A stretch of 64,000 nt of DNA from Megaustenia siamemsis. Its lineage: Eukaryota; Mollusca; Gastropoda; Stylommatophora; Ariophantidae. Both the position numbers and the translations under genes were made by a program. Under the pieces are notes generated by a model. That model did not search any database. It was not told the origin of the DNA and saw only the letters and a list, made by a program, of their open reading frames with translations. How positions within the stretch are numbered: position 1 is the first letter of the stretch; each line of letters begins with the position of its first letter. The DNA lies in assembly GCA_032433765.1 (NCBI GenBank), contig JAVIAB010000160.1:32577852-32641851 (forward strand), read 5' to 3'. Below are positions 8,059 through 50,668 of the stretch, in pieces.

Positions 8059-8557
8059 CCCCGCGTAGCGTACATGCTACACATTTATGTTTCATTAATT
8101 ATAGATAAATCTTGAAACTACCTGTAGTTTAGCCACGCCGATTTAATCAACAAACACCTGGGTTAATCCAATTCGCTTCATTAGTTTCCCATAATTCATT
8201 TTTACTATTGGCTATACACTGCTGCAAAGTAATTGCACATTTACAAGTCTTCGCCAATCTAAACACGATTTAGAAATTCTTCTAGTATAAACCAGAAAAA
8301 AAAGACAAAAAATAATAAATTGTTTAACAGCGTAATATTTTCAGAGTCGTTATGTGATTCAAATGCCAACGAAAAATAGAAATGAAATTCAAAACTGTCG
8401 CAACGTTACACAACAGGATAATTATAAGAGTATCTAGTCACACAAAATCACATACCTAGAAGAAAAAAAAACATTAAGAAATGTACGGGTCAATCATAGT
8501 GACTTGTAAGCATTTGCATAAAGATGAGATAAGGGGCACAATAACAATAATAATAAT
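8059..8557. other. Unassigned intronic sequence
   Basis: AT-rich unique-looking sequence. No coding, RNA or repeat signature is recognised on either strand. Confidence 0.5.
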
Positions 8558-24564: not shown

Positions 24565-26682
24565 TATAGCTTGTTTCATAAGTCTTGCCCAAGTTTAAAA
24601 ATCAATATCTTTTAAACCGCTTTTTGTAATTTTTTCAAAATTTGCATGTATAGTTATAATGATTAGAACCCAACAGGGAATTAATTTCATTAAAAACAAA
24701 CATTTGGTTATTATTATTGCTTATTTGATTTATATAAATTTATAACGACCCATTGATGTCGTCAAAACTTAGTGTTTACGGTATTTAAGTTAAAAATAGC
24801 GATTACAAATCTATAGACGGTCCAATTTAGGATTTTGCACGCTTTCCCCGTGAGTTCAACTGACACAAATAGACACTTGTAGTAAACACGAGACATTGTG
24901 TTTTCCATTTCCGTTAATTCAGCGGCGTATCGTGGAACAATAACATTTATCATGAGTCTTAAAATGAAATTCTGCAGTTTACAAAACATCGCAATAAAAA
25001 TGTATGACTATTTTTGCAAAGAGGCTAAACGAGGAAGATTATTTCATTCTTTAGAAAACCCAGAGAATAGGACAAGACACATTTTGGATTTATCTAAACG
25101 GTCATTTAATCGCTGGATTCAAGCACGTGACCGTCAATGTTCCAAATATACAAAATCACAAGGAAGAGCAAAAATGTTGGATAATTTCGACAGTGAACTT
25201 ATTAGAAGTGAAATTCGCAAAATGTTGGGTATGAATGAAACTGTTACAATAAGAAAATTAAAAGTATCGCTGAAAAAGAACAACAGTATTGAAATATCAA
25301 AGTCTACATTATGGAGGAACGTGAGAGCTGCAGGCTTTACATTCAGAAAGTATTCCAATGGACGAAACATCATCTGTGAGAAGCCACATATAGTAGTCAT
25401 GAGAAGCAAGTACTTACGTGAAGTAAAAGAGGTGCGCAAGCAAGGTTATGATATTGTGTACTTGGATGAAACATGGATCAATGCTCACCACACTAACCAA
25501 AGGGAATGGCAGTCATCAGATGGAAAGATTAAGAGATTAATACCTAGCAGCAAAGGACAGCGCTTGATAATTGCTCATGCAGGTAGTCGACAACATGGAC
25601 TAATACAGAATGCAGAGCTCATTTTTCTTTCAAAATCCATAGACAATCGGGATTATCACTCTGCGATGAATGGTCACATATTTAGACATTGGATTGAAAA
25701 TTCTGTTCTCCCATCACTAGATCGACCATCTTGCCTAATAATGGACAATGCAGCGTACCACAACATTGTTGCACTTGAAGATAAAGTCCCGACGTCATCC
25801 AGTACAAAAGATGCTATTAAGATATGGCTCACAAAGGAGCACATACAATTTAATAACATGTACTTAAAACCTGAATTATTATCTCTAGTAAAGCAAAAAC
25901 AGAGGACAAAGATTTTTCAAATAGATAAGATTATCCAAGAGCACGGTCATATAAGTTTGAGGCTGCCACCTTACCATGCTCATTTAAATCCAATAGAACT
26001 AATCTGGGCAAAATTAAAAGGACAAGTGGCAGATGAAAATACAACATTCAAAATATGCGATGTAAAGACTCTTGCTAATCTCGCTTTATTAAATATAGAC
26101 ACAGATTATTGGGCTAAATGTGAAGACCACGTCTTAAAACAGGAAGAGGAATATTGGAAAAATGATGGTTTGTGGAATGTTCAACCCCAAACAGTTATTA
26201 ATCTTTTAGACTCGTCTGATTCAGAATGAAAGTATATAGCCCCCACAATGTTGGCCCCTATATTACCTTAAATTATTTCAACAAACGGTCCTTTTAAGGA
26301 CCACACAACTATGAAAATTGGACATACAGGTATACCTTGATAATATCGTCCGTCCTCGAACTGAGCAGACAATAATTCTCCTGGTGTTTTGTTTTATCCA
26401 GTTATTTCCCCATTACGGCCACGCCTTTACCTAGTGAAAATTAATCGTAGACCAGCAACTACGGTAATTTCTATTCTTTAGGGCTTCACAATTTACAATT
26501 TTGACAAACATCAAAGAAATATCGCCGCTTTAAGAAAACTGCAGCTGCAAGATATTTGTTAAATATAGATTTAAAGGGTCTTTTGCATTCTAATAACATA
26601 TGGAAAATTTCAAAAGTATTTATCAAACGGTTAGAGAGTAATAGCGTTTTGAAATTGGGCAAATGTTTTGAAACGAGCTATA
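24565..26682 (+). mobile_element. IS630/Tc1-mariner-type transposon nested in the hAT
   Basis: The ends are long imperfect inverted repeats: the left tatagcttgtttcat then cttgcccaagttt, and the right, read from its end inwards, tatagctcgtttcaa then tttgcccaatttc. Similarity continues for about 100 bp on each side. TA dinucleotides stand at both outer borders, as expected for TA target duplication, although tata at each end leaves the exact border uncertain by 2 bp. It carries one intact transposase gene and interrupts the C-terminal end of the hAT coding region. Confidence 0.88.
24952..26229 (+). CDS. IS630/Tc1-type DDE transposase, intact, 425 aa
   Basis: The first ATG of the open frame gives MSLKMKFCSLQN; the frame is open further upstream without another ATG. 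The N-terminal third is basic and helix-turn-helix-like (RHILDLSKRSFNRWIQ, then VSLKKNNSIEISKSTLWRNV). The catalytic core has DIVYLDETWINAHH (D172), CLIMDNAAYHN (D265) and LPPYHAHLNPIELIWAKLKG (E349), the three acidic residues of the family. The D-to-E spacing is 83 residues rather than the usual 34-41, because about 45 extra residues (LEDKVPTSSSTKDAIKIWLT onward) separate the second D from the HI(Q/S) strand. It cuts and pastes DNA at TA sites by family analogy. The single long frame inside a decayed host element suggests a recent arrival. The C-terminus is acidic (NLLDSSDSE). Confidence 0.93.
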   Translation: MSLKMKFCSLQNIAIKMYDYFCKEAKRGRLFHSLENPENRTRHILDLSKRSFNRWIQARDRQCSKYTKSQGRAKMLDNFDSELIRSEIRKMLGMNETVTIRKLKVSLKKNNSIEISKSTLWRNVRAAGFTFRKYSNGRNIICEKPHIVVMRSKYLREVKEVRKQGYDIVYLDETWINAHHTNQREWQSSDGKIKRLIPSSKGQRLIIAHAGSRQHGLIQNAELIFLSKSIDNRDYHSAMNGHIFRHWIENSVLPSLDRPSCLIMDNAAYHNIVALEDKVPTSSSTKDAIKIWLTKEHIQFNNMYLKPELLSLVKQKQRTKIFQIDKIIQEHGHISLRLPPYHAHLNPIELIWAKLKGQVADENTTFKICDVKTLANLALLNIDTDYWAKCEDHVLKQEEEYWKNDGLWNVQPQTVINLLDSSDSE

Positions 26683-37990: not shown

Positions 37991-38789
37991 GTATGACGCA
38001 TTCATGCTCGCAGAGAGCTGTCCTTTGACGAATGATTCAGCGGCGGCCCGCACAAGCAGTGGGCCTGGGGGGAGAAATGTAGATAAAACTCAACTGTGAG
38101 TCCATCCGACCCAGGCGTTTTGTTCTTTTGCATGGCTCTCACTGAGGTCGTCAAATCCGCGAGTGTTATCTCAGCGTTCAATGATTGGCTGTCTGTTTCT
38201 GTCAATAACTTTGTGTGTTGCATACATTTATCTTTTACGTCTTCCCGTGTGTCATCTTGTGTATAGAGCTTCCGGTAGTAATACTCGAAAGCTTTGGCAA
38301 TCTCTGCTGTGTTCGTTTGTTTCTTTATTCTTTTACGATTATTGGTCTTTAAATCTATGATTCCGGACTCTCTTATGATGGCAATCTTCCTCTCTCTTTA
38401 GCTAATTTGTCTGCGCGTTCGTTTCCGTGTACATTACTGTGTGATGGTACCCACTGGTTGACCACTCTCTGGAAGTTATTGCACAGTTGGTCTAGGGTTG
38501 TTATCAAGTCATCTAGCTCACTGTTCTTGAGGATTTTAGAGCTGTTAGGATTGACAGTGCATCAGCCAGTAACACCAATATCTTGTGCACGCTATTTTTG
38601 TGTTGGATAGCTAGTTTTGCAGCGTCTTTGAGGGCTTCAGTTTCTGCTTTAAAGTTGTTTGAGAATTTCCCAGTAGCTATTGACTTTGTGATCTCTTCTT
38701 GGTTATTCTGCCTATTCAGGGGAAAAATCTTTTTAAAATGATTTTTTAGTAAATTTTTAAGTAAATTTTTGTTACTGGGATACCTAAAA

Positions 38790-38830
<41 letters not shown>
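37990..38830 (-). pseudogene. LINE debris: RNase H piece fused to an RT N-terminal piece
   Basis: Minus strand, high to low: SIATGKFSNNFKAETEALKD ... KILVLLADALSILTALKS (RNase H, 38513-38710), then WVPSHSNVHGNERADKLAKE (the RNase H end, about 38400-38465), then without a gap IAIIRESGIIDLKTN and TLADLTTSVRAMQKNKTPGS, DGLTVEFYLHF (the start of an RT domain, 38002-38223). RNase H before RT is the wrong order for one LINE, so two copies abut. A (CT)n run at 38790-38833 borders the palindrome. Confidence 0.75.

Positions 38831-38836
<6 letters not shown>
38831..38836. other. Left target-site duplication of the palindromic element (ctcgct)
   Basis: ctcgct immediately precedes agtagtatac. The identical hexamer follows the other end at 47419-47424. 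The left copy sits at the end of a (CT)n tract, so part of the match could be chance. Confidence 0.7.
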
Positions 38837-40145
38837 AGTAGTATACAATGTTCCAACTGGTCATTATTGAGGCGCTAAACTAACAAAGATATATAGGGAG
38901 GCGCGCAGCGCGCCTTTCGCGCGAAATGTACACGAGAGACAAGGGGAGTTAATCGTGATATTTCGTGTCCGGATGTCAACCTCTGGTCCCGGTGACCCCG
39001 GAAGTGACCTGTTTATGTCTGGTGTATGCTGACTTTGGAGCTCTTGGTGTACTGGCTCGATAGTGCTAGGTTAGTAGATTATACAACATCAATGAAAAAC
39101 AATCAATATAAAACAGAAGACAAAGATATATTTTATTCTTTTATTATCTCAATAGGTGTATAACATACAGTGGATATAATATAACATTACAAAAAAAAAT
39201 ATTCAGTACACGAAGTAAATATATAGTACAAGGATAACATTTATTTATAGCTATGTAGTTGGGTGTCTGCTTAGTTCTATGTCATAGATGAGTCATAATG
39301 GGTGATACTGTTAGAGATTACTGGTTAGTCTAAGCTGGTAGTGTAAATATGTTCCTCGGTGTTAGTGGTTCGCTATCTCTCTCTCTCTCTCTCCGTTTCT
39401 CTCTCTCTCTCTCTCTCTCTACTATTCCAGCCTAGATTTCCCTCCATTGAAACACTTACTCATTCTCTCCATTTATCCCTATCATCGCGCCTTCCTTCTC
39501 TCTCTCTTTCTCCCCTATCCTCTCTTAGACTTCTAACCTATCAGTCCACCCTCCGCCTCTCCCTTTAGCTCCCCGCCCTCCCTCATATTTTTAGCGTCCC
39601 TCCTATTGTAACACTTGATTATTCTCACCATTTATACCTAACATCTCCCTTCTTTCTCATACGCTTCTCTCTCTCGCTCTCTCTCTCTTCTAATCCCTAC
39701 TAGACTTCTCTTCTACCATTCCACCTTTCTTCCTCTCTCTCTCTCTCTTTACCTCGCCTAGCGTTCCGCCTTCATTCGTATTTTTACCTTACCGCCAGTG
39801 TAACACATTAATAACATTGAATATCAATTACAAAAAGACTTGAAATATCTACTTTTTAAAGAACCAATAAGATAAACATATGAAAAACGAAGGAATAATA
39901 CACGCGACAAGGCTTAACATACGTACTTTATACACATCACCATTAATACACCTGAAATTCCTTTAATGATAACCTATCACATCGTTATGAGCTAAGAGAA
40001 AAACAGAAAAAAAATTCAACTTACACCGTAAAATATTCCACTACAACACAGACCGCTAGACTGAACAGTACTATGAAAATAAACGTCCGTGAATCAAGCG
40101 CGCTTATAACACGAAGTCTCACATCCGACTAGTTTAATCTGGTAA
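38837..40145 (+). repeat. Palindrome left arm, outer unique part
   Basis: Contains gcgcgcagcgcgcc and tttcgcgcgaaatg near 38899-38928, a shorter GC-palindrome in the right arm (47349-47355), an AT-rich 39060-39320 part, and CT-rich tracts at 39375-39420 and 39490-39760. No gene is recognised. Mirrored at 46129-47418. Confidence 0.85.
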
Positions 40146-40147
40146 AT

Positions 40148-41036
40148 AAAAGTTAGGAGACAAGGGCAGAAACATAGGAGGCAAGGGCAGAAACCTAGGA
40201 GGCAAGGGCAGAAACCCAGGAGGCAAGGGCAGAAACCTAGGAGGCAAGGACAGAAACCTAAGAGGCAAGGGCAGAAACCTAGGAGGCAAGGACAGAAACC
40301 TAGGAGGCATGGTCAGAAACCTAGGAGGCATGGTCAGAAACCTAGGAGGCAAGGTCAGAAACCAAGGAGGCAAGGGTAGAAACCTAAGAGGTAAGGGCAG
40401 AAACCAAGGAGGGAAGGTCAGAAACCTAGGAGGCAAGGTCAGAAACCTAGGAGGCAAGGTCAGAAACCAAAGAGGCAAGGGCAGAAACCTAGGAGACTAG
40501 GTCAGAAATCTAGGAAGCTGTGTTAGAAAACAAGGAGGGGTGGTCAGAAATCTAGGAAGCTGTGTTAGAAAACAAGGAGGGAAGGTCAGAAACCTAGGAG
40601 GCATGGTCAGAAATCTAGGAAGCTGTGTTAGAAAACAAGGAGGCGAGGGCAGAAACCTAGGAGACAAGGGCAGAAACTTAGGAGGTAAGGGCAGAAACCA
40701 AAGAGACAAGGTTAGAAAACAAGGAGGGAGGGTCAGAAATCTAAGAGGCAAGGGCAGAAACCTAGGAGGCGTGGTCAGAAACCTAGGAGGCGAGGTCAGA
40801 AACCTAGGAGGCGAGGTCAGAAACCAAGGAGGGAAGGTCAGAAAACTAGGAAGCAAAGGCTGAAAACCAAAGAGGCAAGGTCAGAAATCTAGGAAGCTGC
40901 ATTAGAAAACAAGGAGGGAAGGTCAGAAACCTAGGAGACATGGACAGAAAACTAGGAAGCAAAGGCTGAAAACCAAAGAGGCAAGGTTAGAAATCTAGGA
41001 AGCTGCATTAGAAAACAAGGAGGGAAGGTAAGAAAC
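40148..41036. repeat. Palindrome left arm, 21-bp minisatellite
   Basis: About 42 units of ggcaagggcagaaacctagg a with tggtcag, aaggtcag and caagga variants. The period is a multiple of three, so long frames run on both strands (VRNLGGK and FLPLPPR). Mirror array at 45283-46128 with two units fewer. Confidence 0.96.
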
Positions 41037-41040
41037 CTAT

Positions 41041-42300
41041 CTACTTCCATACTGATACTAGTTAGACACATCGATCAGATAGTTACATCCAAAGTCCCAA
41101 ATAGTTAGGCCAAATCACTAACATTTTACCTCCAGAACACAAAAATTTACGCTCATGCTCAAAAAGTCGACCTCAAAACCATAAAAATCTACTCACATAG
41201 TCATACTAGTTAGACACAACGAGCAGGAAGTTATATTCAAGGTCCAAAATGTTAGACCAAATCAATAAGATTTTACCACCAGAACACACAAATTTAGGCT
41301 CATATTAGAAAAGTCGACCTTAAAACTCTACAAATCTACTCTCATACTCATATTAATTAGACACATCGAACAGATTGTTACATCCAAAGTCCCGCCAAAT
41401 CGCAAACATTTTACCCCCAGAACACAAAAATTTAGGCTCATACTCAAAAAGTCGACCTAAAAATCCCAAAAAGCTACTCACATAGTCGTAATAGTTAGAC
41501 ACAACGAATAGGAAGTTATATTCTAGGTCCATAATGTTAGACCAAATCACTAAGATTTTACCACAAGAACACACAAATTTAGGCTCATATTCAAAAAGTC
41601 GACCTAAAAATCCCAAAAAGCTACTCACATAGTCGTAATAGTTAGACACAACGAATAGGAAGTTATATTCTAGGTCCATAATGTTAGACCAAATCACTAA
41701 GATTTTACCACAAGAACACACAAATTTAGGCTCATATTCAAAAAGTCGACCTAAAAATTTCAAAAAGCTACTCACATAGTCATAATTGTTAGACACATCG
41801 AACCGATCGTTATTTCTAAAACCCAAAAAGTTTGGTCAAATCGCCAATATTTTACCCACAGAACACAAAAAATGTAGGGTCATATTAAAAAAATCGACCT
41901 AAAAACTGTAAAAAGCTACTCACATAGTCATAATTGTTAGACACAACGAATAGGAAGTTATATTCTAGGGCCATAATGTTAGACCAAATCACTAAGATTT
42001 TACCACAAGAACACACAAATTTAGGCTCATATTCAAAAAGTCGACCTAAAAATTTCAAAAAGCTACTCACATAGTCATAAATGTTAGACGCATCGAATCG
42101 ATCGTTATTTCTAAAACCCAAAAAGTTTGGTCAAATCGCCAATATTTTACCCACAGAACACCAAAAAAAAAAAAAAAAAAATGTAGACTCATATTCAAAA
42201 AGTCGACCTAAAAATTGTAAAAAGCTACTCACATAGTCATAATTGTTAGACACAACGAGTAGAAAGTTATATTCAAAGTCCAAAAACGTTATTTTAGACA
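41041..42300. repeat. Palindrome left arm, 147-bp satellite units
   Basis: Units spaced 147 bp at gtcgacct (41451, 41598, 41745), with tagtcataattgttagacac, aacgaataggaagttatatt and ccacaagaacacac blocks. Outer units are more diverged. 147 = 3 x 49, so minus-strand frames stay open (FLGRLFEYEPKFVCSCGK). Mirrored at 44035-45270. Confidence 0.93.
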
Positions 42301-43178
42301 TCCCCATAGCAAAAATGTACATAGAAAACCACTTTTAGGATTTTACCCCCTTAGCATTTCTTAGGTTTACGCCCATGAAATCGGTAAAAAAATCGTAATT
42401 TTAGCACGTAGGCTTACCTAAAACTTTATTTTAGACATCCCCATAGCAAAAATTTACATAGAAAACCACTTTTAGGATTTTACCCCTTATCATTTTTTGA
42501 GGGTTACGCCCATTAAATCGGTAAAAATCGTAATTTTAGCACGTAGGCTTACCTAAAACTTTATTTTAGACATCCCCATACCAAAAATTTACTTAAAAAT
42601 CACTTTTGAAATTGTTACCCCCTTACCATTTTTGAGGGTTACGCCCATAGAATTGATAAAAATCGTAAATTTAACACGTAGGCTTACCTAAAACTTTATT
42701 TTAGACATCCCCACACCAAAAATTTACTTAAAAATCACTTTTGAAATTGTAACCCCCCTTACCATTTTTGAGGGTTACGCCCCTGAAAGCGATAAAAATC
42801 GTTAATTTAGCACGTAGGCTTACCTAAAACTTTATTTTAGACATCCCCATACCAAAAATTTACTTAAAAATCACTTTTGAAATTGTAACCCCCCTTACCA
42901 TTTTTGAGGGTTACGCCCCTGAAATCGAAAAAAAATTGAAATATAACCTCAAGGCATACCTAAAACTTTATTTTAGACATCCCCACACCAAAAATTAACT
43001 CAAAAATCACTTTTTAAATTGTTACCCCCCTTAAAATTTTTGAGGGTTACGCCCCTGAAATTGATAAAAAATTGAAATATAACCTCAAGGCATACCTCCC
43101 ACATAATTTTTGACACCCCTACATATCAAATTCCATAAAAAAAACAACAAAAAGCTAGTAGTGATGGTGGCTGTGAAC
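42285..43178. repeat. Palindrome left arm, 136-bp satellite units (six boundaries) and inner end
   Basis: Units spaced 135-136 bp at ggcttacctaaaac (42411, 42546, 42681, 42817) and ggcatacct (42953, 43089), with tttattttagacatccccat and gggttacgcccctgaaa blocks. The inner end carries aacaaaaagctagtagtgat and ggtggctgtgaac up to 43178. Confidence 0.93.
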
Positions 43179-43273
43179 CCTAACATACTACTTCTCGTGC
43201 ATGTTTTGCACCGAAACAGTTTCGGTGCCAAATCTATTGTATTTCGGTGCATGTTATTCCACTATTCCCCAGA
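43179..43273. other. Palindrome centre, 95-bp single-copy spacer with its own small inverted repeat
   Basis: Holds cctaacatactacttctcg, then gcaccgaaacagtttcggtgc, a perfect 9-bp-arm hairpin with a 3-bp loop, and a second tttcggtgcatg copy. The hairpin is tightly nested at the point where the large arms meet. Confidence 0.88.
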
Positions 43274-44040
43274 GTTCACAGCCACCATCACTACTAGCTT
43301 TTTGTTGTTTTTTTTATGGAATTTGATATGTAGGGGTGTCAAAAATTATGTGGGAGGTATGCCTTGAGGTTATATTTCAATTTTTTATCAATTTCAGGGG
43401 CGTAACCCTCAAAAATTTTAAGGGGGGTAACAATTTAAAAAGTGATTTTTGAGTTAATTTTTGGTGTGGGGATGTCTAAAATAAAGTTTTAGGTATGCCT
43501 TGAGGTTATATTTCAATTTTTTTTCGATTTCAGGGGCGTAACCCTCAAAAATGGTAAGGGGGGTTACAATTTCAAAAGTGATTTTTAAGTAAATTTTTGG
43601 TGTGGGGATGTCTAAAATAAAGTTTTAGGTAAGCCTACGTGTTAAATTTACGATTTTTATCAATTCTATGGGCGTAACCCTCAAAAATGGTAAGGGGGTA
43701 ACAATTTCAAAAGTGATTTTTAAGTAAATTTTTGGTATGGGGATGTCTAAAATAAAGTTTTAGGTAAGCCTACGTGCTAAAATTACGATTTTTACCGATT
43801 TAATGGGCGTAACCCTCAAAAAATGATAAGGGGGTAAAATCCTAAAAGTGGTTTTCTATGTAAATTTTTGCTATGGGGATGTCTAAAATAAAGTTTTAGG
43901 TAAGCCTACGTGCTAAAATTACGATTTTTTTACCGATTTCATGGGCGTAAACCTAAGAAATGCTAAGGGGGTAAAATCCTAAAAGTGGTTTTCTATGTAC
44001 ATTTTTGCTATGGGGATGTCTAAAATAACGTTTTTGGACT
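43274..44040. repeat. Palindrome right arm, inner end and 136-bp units (five boundaries)
   Basis: Mirror of the left arm. Unit boundaries at ggtatgcc (43356, 43491) and ggtaagcc (43628, 43763, 43899). One unit fewer than the left arm accounts for most of the arm length difference. Confidence 0.92.
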
Positions 44041-45270
44041 TTGAATATAACTTTCTACTCGTTGTGTCTAACAATTATGACTATGTGAGTAGCTTTTTAC
44101 AATTTTTAGGTCGACTTTTTGAATGAGTCTACATTTTTTTTTTTTTTTTTTGTGTTCTGTGGGTAAAATATTGGCGATTTGACCAAACTTTTTGGGTTTT
44201 AGAAATAACGATCGATTCGATGCGTCTAACATTTATGACTATGTGAGTAGCTTTTTGAAATTTTTAGGTCGACTTTTTGAATATGAGCCTAAATTTGTGT
44301 GTTCTTGTGGTAAAATCTTAGTGATTTGGTCTAACATTATGGCCCTAGAATATAACTTCCTATTCGTTGTGTCTAACAATTATGACTATGTGAGTAGCTT
44401 TTTACAGTTTTTAGGTCGATTTTTTGAATATGACCCTACATTTTTTGTGTTCTGTGGGTAAAATATTGGCGATTTGACCAAACTTTTTGGGTTTTAGAAA
44501 TAACGATCGGTTCGATGTGTCTAACAATTATGACTATGTGAGTAGCTTTTTGAAATTTTTAGGTCGACTTTTTGAATATGAGCCTAAATTTGTGTGTTCT
44601 TGTGGTAAAATCTTAGTGATTTGGTCTAACATTATGGACCTAGAATATAACTTCCTATTCGTTGTGTCTAACTATTACGACTATGTGAGTAGCTTTTTGG
44701 GATTTTTAGGTCGACTTTTTGAATATGAGCCTAAATTTGTGTGTTCTTGTGGTAAAATCTTAGTGATTTGGTCTAACATTATGGACCTAGAATATAACTT
44801 CCTATTCGTTGTGTCTAACTATTACGACTATGTGAGTAGCTTTTTGGGATTTTTAGGTCGACTTTTTGAGTATGAGCCTAAATTTTTGTGTTCTGGGGGT
44901 AAAATGTTTGCGATTTGGCGGGACTTTGGATGTAACAATCTGTTCGATGTGTCTAATTAATATGAGTATGAGAGTAGATTTGTAGAGTTTTAAGGTCGAC
45001 TTTTCTAATATGAGCCTAAATTTGTGTGTTCTGGTGGTAAAATCTTATTGATTTGGTCTAACATTTTGGACCTTGAATATAACTTCCTGCTCGTTGTGTC
45101 TAACTAGTATGACTATGTGAGTAGATTTTTATGGTTTTGAGGTCGACTTTTTGAGCATGAGCGTAAATTTTTGTGTTCTGGAGGTAAAATGTTAGTGATT
45201 TGGCCTAACTATTTGGGACTTTGGATGTAACTATCTGATCGATGTGTCTAACTAGTATCAGTATGGAAGT
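44035..45270. repeat. Palindrome right arm, 147-bp satellite units
   Basis: Mirror of 41041-42300. Open + frames at 44192-44461 and 44487-44960 translate the same 49-residue repeat as on the left. No start-context, signal peptide or homologue is recognised, so coding is not claimed. Confidence 0.92.
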
Positions 45271-45282
45271 AGATAGGTTTCT

Positions 45283-46128
45283 TACCTTCCCTCCTTGTTT
45301 TCTAATGCAGCTTCCTAGATTTCTAACCTTGCCTCTTTGGTTTTCAGCCTTTGCTTCCTAGTTTTCTGTCCATGTCTCCTAGGTTTCTGACCTTCCCTCC
45401 TTGTTTTCTAATGCAGCTTCCTAGATTTCTGACCTTGCCTCTTTGGTTTTCAGCCTTTGCTTCCTAGTTTTCTGACCTTCCCTCCTTGGTTTCTGACCTC
45501 GCCTCCTAGGTTTCTGACCTCGCCTCCTAGGTTTCTGACCACGCCTCCTAGGTTTCTGCCCTTGCCTCTTAGATTTCTGACCCTCCCTCCTTGTTTTCTA
45601 ACCTTGTCTCTTTGGTTTCTGCCCTTACCTCCTAAGTTTCTGCCCTTGTCTCCTAGGTTTCTGCCCTCGCCTCCTTGTTTTCTAACACAGCTTCCTAGAT
45701 TTCTGACCATGCCTCCTAGGTTTCTGACCTTCCCTCCTTGTTTTCTAACACAGCTTCCTAGATTTCTGACCACCCCTCCTTGTTTTCTAACACAGCTTCC
45801 TAGATTTCTGACCTAGTCTCCTAGGTTTCTGCCCTTGCCTCTTTGGTTTCTGACCTTGCCTCCTAGGTTTCTGACCTTGCCTCCTAGGTTTCTGACCTTC
45901 CCTCCTTGGTTTCTGACCTTGCCTCCTAGGTTTCTGACCATGCCTCCTAGGTTTCTGACCATGCCTCCTAGGTTTCTGTCCTTGCCTCCTAGGTTTCTGC
46001 CCTTGCCTCTTAGGTTTCTGTCCTTGCCTCCTAGGTTTCTGCCCTTGCCTCCTGGGTTTCTGCCCTTGCCTCCTAGGTTTCTGCCCTTGCCTCCTATGTT
46101 TCTGCCCTTGTCTCCTAACTTTTATTTA
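45283..46128. repeat. Palindrome right arm, 21-bp minisatellite
   Basis: Mirror of 40148-41036, lacking 42 bp (two units) around 45903-45920. Confidence 0.95.
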
Positions 46129-47418
46129 CCAGATTAAACTAGTCGGATGTGAGACTTCGTGTTATAAGCGCGCTTGATTCACGGACGTTTATTTTCATAG
46201 TACTGTTCAGTCTAGCGGTCTGTGTTGTAGTGGAATATTTTACGGTGTAAGTTGAATTTTTTTTCTGTTTTTCTCTTAGCTCATAACGATGTGATAGGTT
46301 ATCATTAAAGGAATTTCAGGTGTATTAATGGTGATGTGTATAAAGTACGTATGTTAAGCCTTGTCGCGTGTATTATTCCTTCGTTTTTCATATGTTTATC
46401 TTATTGGTTCTTTAAAAAGTAGATATTTCAAGTCTTTTTGTAATTGATATTCAATGTTATTAATGTGTTACACTGGCGGTAAGGTAAAAATACGAATGAA
46501 GGCGGAACGCTAGGCGAGGTAAAGAGAGAGAGAGAGAGGAAGAAAGGTGGAATGGTAGAAGAGAAGTCTAGTAGGGATTAGAAGAGAGAGAGAGCGAGAG
46601 AGAGAAGCGTATGAGAAAGAAGGGAGATGTTAGGTATAAATGGTGAGAATAATCAAGTGTTACAATAGGAGGGACGCTAAAAATATGAGGGAGGGCGGGG
46701 GAGCTAAAGGGAGAGGCGGAGGGTGGACTGATAGGTTAGAAGTCTAAGAGAGGATAGGGGAGAAAGAGAGAGAGAAGGAAGGCGCGATGATAGGGATAAA
46801 TGGAGAGAATGAGTAAGTGTTTCAATGGAGGGAAATCTAGGCTGGAATAGTAGAGAGAGAGAGAGAGAGAGAAACGGAGAGAGAGAGAGAGAGATAGCGA
46901 ACCACTAACACCGAGGAACATATTTACACTACCAGCTTAGACTAACCAGTAATCTCTAACAGTATCACCCATTATGACTCATCTATGACATAGAACTAAG
47001 CAGACACCCAACTACATAGCTATAAATAAATGTTATCCTTGTACTATATATTTACTTCGTGTACTGAATATTTTTTTTTTGTAATGTTATATTATATCCA
47101 CTGTATGTTATACACCTATTGAGATAATAAAAGAATAAAATATATCTTTTTCTTCTGTTTTATATTGATTGTTTTTCATTGATGTTGTATAATCTACTAA
47201 CCTAGCACTATCGAGCCAGTACACCAAGAGCTCCAAAGTCAGCATACACCAGACATAAACAGGTCACTTCCGGGGTCACCGGGACCAGAGGTTGACATCC
47301 GGACACGAAATATCACGATTAACTCCCCTTGTCTCTCGTGTACATTTCGCGCGCCTCCCTATATATCTTTGTTAGTTTAGCGCCTCAATAATGACCAGTT
47401 GGAACATTGTATACTACT
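46129..47418 (-). repeat. Palindrome right arm, outer unique part
   Basis: Mirror of 38837-40145. Differences include a single base near 47150 (left caaag, right equivalent aaaag) and absence of the 16-bp GC block. Ends gtatactact at 47418. Confidence 0.87.
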
Positions 47419-47424
47419 CTCGCT
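47419..47424. other. Right target-site duplication of the palindromic element (ctcgct)
   Basis: ctcgct directly follows gtatactact and equals 38831-38836. Confidence 0.72.
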
Positions 47425-47735: not shown

Positions 47736-47749
47736 TCACTACATCAGGC

Positions 47750-49830
47750 GTATCCATGAAAAATGGCTGGGGGTAAAATTCATAAAAGTGATTTTTTTTT
47801 AAATTCAAAATCTTGCAACGAGGATGTCTAATATGAAATTTTGGGAAAACCTAGAGGTTACATTTTTTTAAACATTTTCATAGGCGTATCCCAAAAAAAA
47901 TGGTCAGGGGATAACATATATAAACGTGATTTTCAAGTAATTTTTTTCTATGGGGACGCCTAAAATAAAGTTTGAGGTAAGCCTAGAGGTTACATTTTAT
48001 TTTTTTAAACAGTTTCATAGGCGTATCCCTGAAAAATGGTCAGGGGTAAAATTCATAAAAGTGATTTCTACGTACATTTTTGCTACGGGGATGCCTAAAT
48101 TAAATTTTGAGGTAAGCCTAGAGGTTAAATTATATTTAAAAAAAACAGTTTCATAGGCGTATACCTAAAAAAATGGTCAGGGGTAAAATTAATAAAAGTG
48201 ATTTTTAAAATTCAAAATCTTGCAATGAGGATGTCTAATATGAAGTTTGAAATAGGCCTAGAGTGTAAATTTACTATTTTTAGTGTTTTCATAGTCGTAT
48301 CCATAACAAATGGTTGAGGGTAAAAATCATAAAAGTGATTTTTATTCAAAATCTTGATACGGTGATGTCTAATATGAAGTTTTGGGAAAGCCTAGAGGTT
48401 AAATTTTTTTTTTTAAAGTTCATAGGCGTCTCCTTTAAAAATGATCAAGGTTTAAAAATTCATAAAAGTGATTTTAAGTAAATTTTTTCTAGGATGATGT
48501 CTAATATGAAATTTGAGGTAAGCCTAGAGGTTAAATTAATTTTTGGTTTTACAGTTTCATAGTGGTATCCCTCAAAAATGGTCAGGGTGTTAAATTCATA
48601 AAAGTGATTTAAAGTAATTTTTTGTTACGGTGATGTCTAAAATAAAGTTTGAGGTAAGCCTAGGGGTTACATTTTATTTTTTTAATAGTTTCATAGGCGC
48701 ATCCCACAAAAATGGTCAGGGGCAATATTCATAAAAGTGATTTTTAAGTACATTTTTTTTCTACAGGGATGCTTAAAATAAAGTTTGAGGTAAGCCTTGT
48801 GATTAACTTTTATTTTTTTTACAGCTTAATATGCGTATCCACCAAAAATAGTGAGGGGGTAAAATTAATAAAAGTTATTTTTAGGTAAATTTTTCTACGG
48901 GGATGCCTAAAATAAAGTTTGAGGTAAGCCTAAATGTTAAATTTTATTTTTTAACAGTTTCATAGGCGTATCACTCAAAAATGGTCATTGGTAAAATACA
49001 TAAAAGTGACTTTTAAGTACATTTTTTCTACAGGGATGCTTAAAATAAAGTTTGAGGTAAGCCTAATGGTTAAATTTTATCTTTTAACAGTTTCATAGGC
49101 GTATCCCTTAAAAAATGGCTGGGGGTAAAATTCATAAAAGTGATTTTTTATTCAAAATCTTGCAATGAGCATGTCTAATATGAAGTTTGAAATAGGTCTA
49201 GAGTGTAAATTTACTATTTTTAGTGTTTTCATAGTCTTATCCATAACAAATGGTTGGGGGTAAAAATCATAAAAGTGATTTTTATTCAAAATCTTGCTAC
49301 GGGGATATCTAATATGAAGTTTTGGGAAAGCCTAGAGGATAAATCTATTTTTTTTTTTACAGTTTTATAGGCCTATCTTTAGAAAAAATGGCTGCAGGTA
49401 AAATTCATAAAAGTGATTCTTATTCAAAATCTTGCTACGGTGATGTCTAATATGAAGTTTTTGGAAAGCCTAGAAGTTTAATTTTATTTTATAACAGTTT
49501 CATAGGCGTATCCCTAAAAAATGATCAAGAGTTTAAAATTCATAAAAGTTATTTTTAAGTCAATTTTTGCTACGATGATGTCTAATATGAAGTTTTGGGA
49601 AAGCCTAGCGTGTAAATTTACTATTTTAAATGATTTTATAGTCGTATCCATCAAAAAATTGCTGGGGGTAAAATTCATGAAAGGGATTTTTTATTCAAAA
49701 TCTTTCCAGGAGGATGTCTAATGTGAAGTTTGGGGTAGGCCTAGAGTGTAAATTTACTATTTTTAGTTATTTCATAGGCGTAGCCATAAAAAATGGCTAT
49801 GGGTAAAACGATGTGTGATCGGTTGTGTGT
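47750..49830. repeat. Diverged 120-140 bp satellite related to the palindrome's 136-bp units
   Basis: About 16 units with ataaagtttgaggtaagcct, tttcataggcgtatcc, tggtcaggggtaaaattc and ataaaagtgattttt. These correspond in order and orientation to ataaagttttaggtaagcct, cgggcgtaaccctc-type, ggtaagggggtaa and aaaagtgatttttaag in the right arm. Units differ much more among themselves than do the units in the palindrome. Confidence 0.88.
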
Positions 49831-49859
49831 TTGTGTGTGGGTGTTTTTTTTACCTTTTT

Positions 49860-50260
49860 TTGTTTAACTATTATTACTATGGGTGTAGATTTTTAGGGTT
49901 CGAGATAAACTTTTTGATTATTAACCTAAATATGTGTGTTTTGGGGCTAATTTTTTTGCGATTTGGTCTAACTTTTTGAACCTTGAATATAACTTTCTGC
50001 TCGTTGTGTCTAACTATTATGACTATGTGAGTAGATTTTTAGGTTTTTGAGGTCGACGCTTTGAATATGAACCTAAATTTTTGTGTTCTGGGGGTAACAT
50101 TTTTGCGATTTGGCCGAACTTATTGGACCTTGAATATAACTTTCTGCTTGTTGTGTCTAACTATTATGACTATGGGAGCAGATTTTTAGACTTTTGAGGT
50201 CTATTTTTTGCTTATGAGCGGACTAACTTTTTGGACCTTGAATATAACTTTCTGACTGTG
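49860..50260. repeat. Diverged copies of the palindrome's 147-bp unit
   Basis: About three units with ccttgaatataactttctgc, tcgttgtgtctaactattat and gactatgtgagtagattttt plus gaggtcgac, in the same order relative to the preceding array as in the right arm. Confidence 0.88.
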
Positions 50261-50668
50261 CTCTAAGTACTGGATTATGGTTTGGGTATACTCACTCTCT
50301 TGTCAACTCAGATCGCAAGGTTGGAATGAGTTCAAAATTAGGGCCTACAGGCAGTTCTCGGATACACCAGAGATACACCTATCCGTTCAATGATGTACTT
50401 ACTTGACTTTCCGTGGATTAGAGTGCGACATAGATCTGTTCAGGTCCGGGCTTAGTTGAACGCAGAAAGGAACATAGTTAATCCCTTGCATTCAGGATTG
50501 GGTGTGACCAAGGGCAAGCGCCTCAATCGTGAAAAAATCCTTTATGGCTGAGTCGGAGGAGTCCACATGGAGAGTATGCAATGTGAATGACATTAGGCCC
50601 GGCTAGGATTGGACAGATGTAACAACAGAGAAAAAGAAGCTAACCAAATTAATAATTCATTTTTGCAG
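50261..50668. other. Unassigned sequence upstream of a possible exon
   Basis: No gene is recognised. gacattaggcccggctagga near 50590 has the look of an old repeat tail. Ends in acceptor catttttgcag at 50668. Confidence 0.4.

Follow-up and report, generated by a model that had tools for sequence, protein, structure and literature searches.

A giant gene-less palindrome in Megaustenia siamemsis and its high-copy family, probably derived from Polintons

The window element and its family

Here we describe a giant palindrome in the genome of the gastropod Megaustenia siamemsis, located in a 64,000-nucleotide stretch of contig JAVIAB010000160.1 (positions 32,577,852 to 32,641,851; hereafter the window), together with the family to which this window copy (W) belongs. 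An earlier note, made from the letters of the window alone, had described mirrored arms around a 95-bp spacer, flanking CTCGCT hexamers and defined ends, all of which are confirmed, with ends that read exactly AGTAGTATAC and GTATACTACT and arms that pair across about 4.15 kb. The interval it gave, 38831-47424, is the right span but includes both CTCGCT copies; the palindromic element proper occupies 38837-47418 (8,582 bp; Table 1). With the missing 136-bp unit treated as a single gap, the differences between the arms come to 2 substitutions, a GC-rich indel of 16 bp close to the end, array indels of 42 bp (2x21) and 136 bp, and six indels of 1-2 bp, whereas a naive half-versus-half alignment yields 108 mismatches because the 136-bp unit falls out of register. 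In each arm, the inner part consists mostly of 21-, 147- and 136-bp tandem arrays. The one long array open reading frame (ORF) tested matches no Pfam family, and no integrase-sized ORF lies outside the arrays of W. The view that the body holds arrays and no gene stands for W, but not for its relatives, many of which carry a polymerase-like ORF in inverted pairs.

Table 1. Features of the window copy, in window coordinates
Feature	Position	Strand	Basis
Left target-site duplication CTCGCT	38831..38836	.	sequence
Palindrome left arm	38837..43178	+	
Terminal motif AGTAGTATA	38837..38845	+	end alignment; fits Maverick (AGT)2 end motif
21-bp tandem array, left arm	40154..41039	+	
147-bp tandem array, left arm	41041..42282	+	
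136-bp tandem array, left arm	42283..43070	+	
Central spacer, 95 bp	43179..43273	.	
Small hairpin GCACCGAAACAGTTTCGGTGC within spacer	43208..43228	.	read from sequence
Right arm, inverted copy of left arm	43274..47418	-	
136-bp tandem array, right arm, one unit shorter	43380..44034	-	
147-bp tandem array, right arm	44043..45272	-	
21-bp tandem array, right arm, two units shorter	45274..46117	-	
Terminal motif TATACTACT	47410..47418	-	end alignment
Right target-site duplication CTCGCT	47419..47424	.	sequence

Instead of a lone giant element, W turned out to be one member of a large and partly very young family, whose copies measure 5-13 kb among those read. Searching with the first 201 bp as query returned 1,885 first-look candidates, of which 40 were scored, many in +/- pairs. 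Copies with W-type ends are abundant, as a 26-bp word of the terminal inverted repeat (TIR) occurs exactly 1,624 times (823 + 801) in the 2.59-Gb, 155-contig genome (reversed control, 0), a count that passes over copies with variant TIRs such as the 12,796- and 12,926-bp elements discussed below. Among the first 100 listed TIR words, 45 neighbour pairs lie less than 20 kb apart, with orientations +- in 32, ++ in 9, -- in 4 and -+ in none; the +- pairs, which represent the two ends of one element, have a median distance of 9.6 kb.

Alignment of 17 elements (loci and copies in the genome are labelled L0nn, and contigs C) placed AGTAGTATA at 33 of the 34 ends, followed by approximately 20 bp that differ from element to element, although the two ends of any one element mostly agree (L019 is an exception), and then, further inward, by a conserved block. 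This variable stretch between two conserved blocks (TIR bases 10-31) possibly reflects a changing binding site, or end-to-end copying. Vertebrate Mavericks generate 6-bp duplications and most often carry 5'-(AGT)2//(ACT)2-3' ends (PMC8097293). The end motif and 6-bp duplications of the family fit Maverick/Polinton elements, and the earlier suggestion of Polinton-like ends is strengthened by the published motif. Furthermore, the AGT is duplicated at the family ends, a terminal repetition that would allow sliding back or jumping back; in adenovirus, which replicates by protein priming, the duplicated terminal trinucleotide serves jumping back (PMC4974454).

Two further observations concern the ends. 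IMG/VR matches to the first 18 bp (L009 and L010) were only 20-27 bp long, about what chance would give for an 18-mer by our own estimate, and were dropped; they sit among long ORFs that resemble phage structural genes by eye. Moreover, one cluster (L021-L023; C51:41859000-41888700) contains several same-direction TIR ends about 2.27 kb apart, with direct repeats 98-99% identical and outer flanks that both read TAGGAT.

Insertion and movement of whole palindromes

The proposal that W is a discrete inserted unit, and not a random inverted duplication, is borne out by the recurrence of its ends elsewhere in the genome, where the copies have 6-bp duplications of their own. Both ends were read in 22 copies, W included, and the duplication is exact in 20 of them. 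Exact duplications were found in 15 of a set of 17 two-ended copies, in three copies pieced together by eye from one-ended loci (L045/L046, ATCTAC; L044/L052, ATGGTA; L051/L047, CTCGAT), and, also by eye, in the two large elements on C124 and C98 (duplications CTCGCG, TACCTA); the count leaves aside L027 (one end), the L021-L023 cluster, and L031 and L032 (interiors only). L025 and L026, 122 kb apart on C107, have identical flanks and are copies of one event, through either segmental duplication or assembly duplication.

Unoccupied sites were sought by comparing the joined flanks, with one copy of the duplication, to related sequence. Paralogous unoccupied relatives aligned through the junction at 78-91% identity for six copies other than W (L011, L013, L015, L019, L028 and L030), the L015 alignment being interrupted by a 2-bp gap within a few bases of the junction. 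For W itself the unoccupied site is not shown, the sole match to its flanks being a stretch inside L024 that is imperfect at the junction.

The palindrome moves as a whole. W and L013 (C91) agree at 8,534 of 8,549 aligned bases (15 mismatches, 99.8%; 18 gaps, 235 bases in all) and are flanked by different duplications, CTCGCT and AAAGAT; near-identical palindromes at two sites with different duplications mean that the palindrome itself is the mobile unit. In trees of the outermost 800 bp (FastTree; IQ-TREE support 56-100), 12 of 17 elements have arms that group as sisters, the exceptions being the near-identical W/L012/L013 and the duplicate pair L025/L026; within one element the arms differ there by 0-2.3%. 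The sister pattern is weak for L016, L019 and L020, whose arms are hardly nearer each other than to another copy.

A trace of how new palindromes arise is preserved in L014 (5,209 bp; duplication CCCCTA), which tracks an arm of L011 (98.9% over 2.6 kb) to L011 base 2612 and then switches strand, resuming at base 2583. The junction has a 4-nt microhomology (CAGT) and a 25-nt loop, and the sequences to its two sides are exactly identical over 956 bp and 1,294 bp. Read from this alignment, L014 records a template switch by fold-back, in which a molecule with a retained end became a new palindrome made from an L011-like arm. L012 has another axis again, and most of the other centres compared share one common older centre with AGTAGT motifs and small hairpins. 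At L057:1366-1501 and in many other centres, a second AGTAGT//ACTACT pair surrounds a small hairpin, resembling a miniature element in mid-palindrome.

Such palindromes could instead have formed after insertion, with short-TIR elements converted by break repair or by arm-to-arm conversion and with no special replication. Gene conversion would likewise produce sister arms, L029 does have short TIRs (824 bp) around a single-copy interior, and fold-back copying at chromosomal breaks is described in the literature. However, W and L013 are whole palindromes at separate insertion sites, and L014, with a new axis between two ends and a duplication of its own, looks as if a linear molecule had folded before insertion. 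Conversion after insertion is therefore unlikely, if the best placed of the competing explanations.

Polymerase-like frames and possible helper elements

Relatives of W contain ORFs that resemble a polymerase, here followed with two pieces, p16 (ORF L016:2260-3252) and p29 (L029:1363-1857, 165 aa). Pieces of p16 of at least 58 aa occur in 11 of the 17 elements. They lie in the left arm, in its minus frame, and have a mirror copy in the right arm, except in L029, which holds p16 in one place; in L015, L024 and L028 the p16 piece is 42 aa at most. In L029, p29 lies outward of p16 and contains a Kx3NSxY motif that we take to resemble polymerase motif B. At all 12 loci compared, representing 9 elements including L029, p29 sits 1,047-1,075 bp inside the terminal motif. 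A genome search with p29 gave 5,189 candidates, and the 150 scored matches include 28 close pairs, all inverted (-+). At the p29 loci, 22 open frames reach a length of 1,000 codons; nine measure 1,284-1,294 codons and the longest 1,478, and 14 of the 22 have no stop inside the p29 match by hand count.

The largest copies combine these frames with the ends of the family. The elements on C124 and C98 (12,796 and 12,926 bp, as measured from end to end) share the AGTAGTATAC ends, are closely similar in their TIR core and are flanked by 6-bp duplications. On C124 both arms carry a frame of 1,289 codons, without a stop in the p29 match on the left and with one on the right; the left one, C124:87882993-87886859, holds p29 and p16 (p16 at 85.6% over 326 aa) in the same frame by coordinates. 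The frames on C98 have 1,284 and 609 codons, and the paired frames on C100, of 1,477 and 1,257 codons, are both free of stops in the p29 match. Frames of 1,376-1,478 codons at three other loci extend further than the C124 frame by their length. The half of the C124 centre that was read (1,501 bp, as far as the axis) contains neither an ORF of 100 aa nor an integrase; it is a 136-bp array and a W-type centre (889 bp at 75.6%), so W follows the plan of the larger form, with arrays in place of the polymerase region.

The resemblance of p29 to a polymerase comes by way of its homologues. There are 267, with 44-71% identity in the best 120 rows, and they include names from Exaiptasia, Styela, Mercenaria and Paramuricea. 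PF03175 (DNA_pol_B_2) matches at E <= 0.1 in 9 of 29 members (p29 and 28 homologues), the best at 1.1e-4. We place moderate confidence in the polymerase link of the family. Some homologues of the polymerase-like piece also carry a Vsr-endonuclease-like stretch, and a PDB profile search with the p29 alignment returned weak Vsr endonuclease matches only.

Full Polintons are probably present in the genome as possible helpers. L034, a PF03175 genome match (0 of 14 in the control genomes), lies 9.5 kb from a match to PF04665, the packaging ATPase family, which is how a true Polinton is laid out. The PF04665 family reaches 127 genome places over the cut-off, and by hand count about two thirds of them have a frame of 252 codons. 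None of the 127 is within 25 kb of 122 p29 loci or of 25 TIR loci, each set being the best-scored portion of a larger one. The near-equal scores of these 252-codon frames would suggest that full Polintons, or some other element that bears the ATPase, have recently multiplied in a burst. No TIR core word occurs in the 3.3-4.5 kb around the PF03175 matches L033-L040, no capsid gene was seen in the pieces read, although no capsid search was made, and no Polinton was tied to the family TIR, nor any helper found with a W-type end. Relatives with a polymerase-like ORF were found, but no Polinton with both the TIR of W and an integrase; the idea of a Polinton derivative served by an integrase in trans is supported overall. 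Two candidates for an autonomous partner, taken from among the longest intervals, were rejected, namely L031 (inside a 16.9-kb interval), whose 443-aa ORF is long interspersed nuclear element-like by eye only, and L032 (inside a 15.6-kb interval), which has no ORF of 100 aa.

The fixed position of p29 also bears on a second explanation, in which the family would be a classical cut-and-paste foldback family of the Galileo/FB/MULE type with its own transposase, the polymerase being captured cargo and the end motif a coincidence. Long inverted arms filled with arrays are the hallmark of foldback elements such as Tetris and Galileo, and no integrase is tied to the family. Ends matching those of Mavericks speak against this account, however, and a polymerase-like piece fixed at 1.05-1.08 kb does not look like repeated random capture, even if one old capture would fix the position equally well. 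FB, Galileo and MULE elements, which use P or MULE transposases, make 7-9-bp duplications, against 6 bp here. A foldback origin of this kind is accordingly a rather improbable alternative.

An IS3EU- or GingerRoot-type transposon would share the 6-bp duplications but is very improbable, since the family ends in AG..CT, which contradicts this identity, and the gene of its relatives is polymerase-like, whereas the termini of complete IS3EU families are always TA..TA and those of GingerRoot mostly TA..TA and occasionally TG..CA (PMC10045372). An assembly artefact or a chance inverted duplication has next to no credibility: palindromes are hard to assemble, but many copies of varied lengths lie on many contigs with their own 6-bp duplications and unoccupied paralogous sites.

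A Polinton-derived origin and its consequences

We favor, with a probability of roughly 0.7, the reading that W is a gene-less member of a high-copy, Polinton-derived palindromic family that depends on protein-primed copying and on an integrase supplied in trans. The family as a whole would consist of defective palindromic Polinton derivatives that probably use a protein-primed polymerase for their copying and a Polinton integrase in trans for their insertion. It is not filed as Polinton because no packaging gene was found near it and no integrase in the parts read, and is best regarded as a palindromic element of Polinton descent that probably relies on Polinton enzymes.

A three-step cycle can be proposed. 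The linear element would be copied from its (AGT)2 ends by the protein-primed polymerase of relatives or of full Polintons, possibly with a jump back on the duplicated trinucleotide as in adenovirus. The growing strand would occasionally fold back on a match of a few nucleotides and copy itself, turning one arm and its end into a new palindrome; the L014/L011 junction displays the product, and its formation during protein-primed replication is presumed. The double-stranded product, with an intact end on each side, would then be inserted by the trans-supplied Polinton integrase, leaving a 6-bp duplication; the duplications and the unoccupied sites are observed, the enzyme is presumed.

Several results weigh against this Polinton-derived origin. 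Two of the 22 two-ended copies lack an exact duplication (L024 has one mismatch, L016 no match), W, L012 and L013 hold no polymerase remnant, and no integrase was identified in the pieces read (W outside the arrays, half of the C124 centre). Direct searches of Pfam, PHROGs, PDB and IMG/VR with p16 and p29 found no polymerase: p16 matches only C2H2 fingers among Pfam and, against 5.8 billion proteins, gave neither a polymerase nor a homologue among candidates of its own length, while p29 itself matches neither a Pfam nor a PDB family, and none of its PHROG matches exceeds chance. Its connection to PF03175 runs through homologues with weak scores; a PF03175 test of ten proteins gave a single match, below the curated cut-off, and the palindrome loci were not among the matches of the PF03175 genome search. 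Although p29 aligns with L034 at the motif-B-like site, the comparison is weak (hhalign E 0.0019, probability 14%, best of 12 p29 comparisons). Stops fall inside the p29 match in 8 of the 22 long frames, and the C124 1,289-codon frame ends 67 residues past the motif-B-like site with motif C not seen; it may be truncated or spliced, as the stop comes before any motif C. Finally, PF04665 also matches 2 of 14 control genomes, and for this reason the presence of full Polintons is argued mainly from the single locus L034.

The family shares with Polintons/Mavericks (polintoviruses) the 6-bp duplications, the (AGT)2//(ACT)2 ends, terminal inverted repeats and, in relatives of W, a B-family polymerase-like ORF near the end. 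Unlike them, it has a palindromic body with polymerase-like ORFs in inverted pairs or none, and its copies read, at 5-13 kb, show no integrase or ATPase in the parts read; in vertebrates, Maverick TIRs span 46-1,447 bp and intact elements 12.7-24.6 kb (PMC8097293). With the foldback elements FB, Galileo and Tetris it has in common long inverted-repeat arms with tandem arrays and a high copy number, and it departs from them in its 6-bp duplications, Maverick-type ends and polymerase-like ORF. Snap-back defective adenovirus genomes and the palindromes of linear killer plasmids are likewise palindromes folded back from one end with both ends kept, but the products of this family lie in a host genome, have 6-bp duplications and move as a family. 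Satellite-like arrays on mobile elements are also known from non-autonomous tandem-repeat elements of molluscs, such as the Helentron-type elements of oyster. Helentrons lack long TIRs and target duplications, both of which this family has. Titles and abstracts mentioned no palindromic or polymerase-only Polinton, a level of coverage that leaves most subscription journals outside and is no proof of absence.

A more far-reaching reading, which we put forward only tentatively, would treat the family as a distinct class of one-gene palindromic Polinton relatives that replicate as linear DNA folded back on itself, yield gene-less offspring and, as hyperparasites, exploit the integrase that full Polintons make. 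Each arm would carry the polymerase, and repeated snap-back switching would generate the gene-less palindromes. This reading is weakened by the PF04665 matches in control genomes and by the stops in long frames noted above. If true, the class would be a genome-fixed, very-high-copy counterpart of the defective-interfering snap-back molecules of adenovirus.

To our knowledge, protein-primed copying of Polintons has been deduced mostly from gene content. Young palindromes, jump-back-type ends and an exact fold-back junction would together form a genomic record of such replication, which would become testable from sequence alone. Moreover, the family would offer one origin for foldback elements and dispersed satellite arrays, and would be a naturally occurring example of defective-interfering elements that have become fixed in the genome of an animal. 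Its copies are giant potential hairpins on many contigs, of relevance to genome stability and assembly.

Around W, diverged arrays (about 64-81%) of its own 136- and 147-bp kinds occupy the flanks at 47746-50266 and 38730-38790; those on the right follow the order of the right arm, and a trace on the left was also seen by eye, so W lies in or beside an older relative or satellite. Elsewhere in the window, 24898-26229 on the + strand encodes a 443-aa Tc1-like transposase ORF (Pfam DDE_3, E 1.2e-13).

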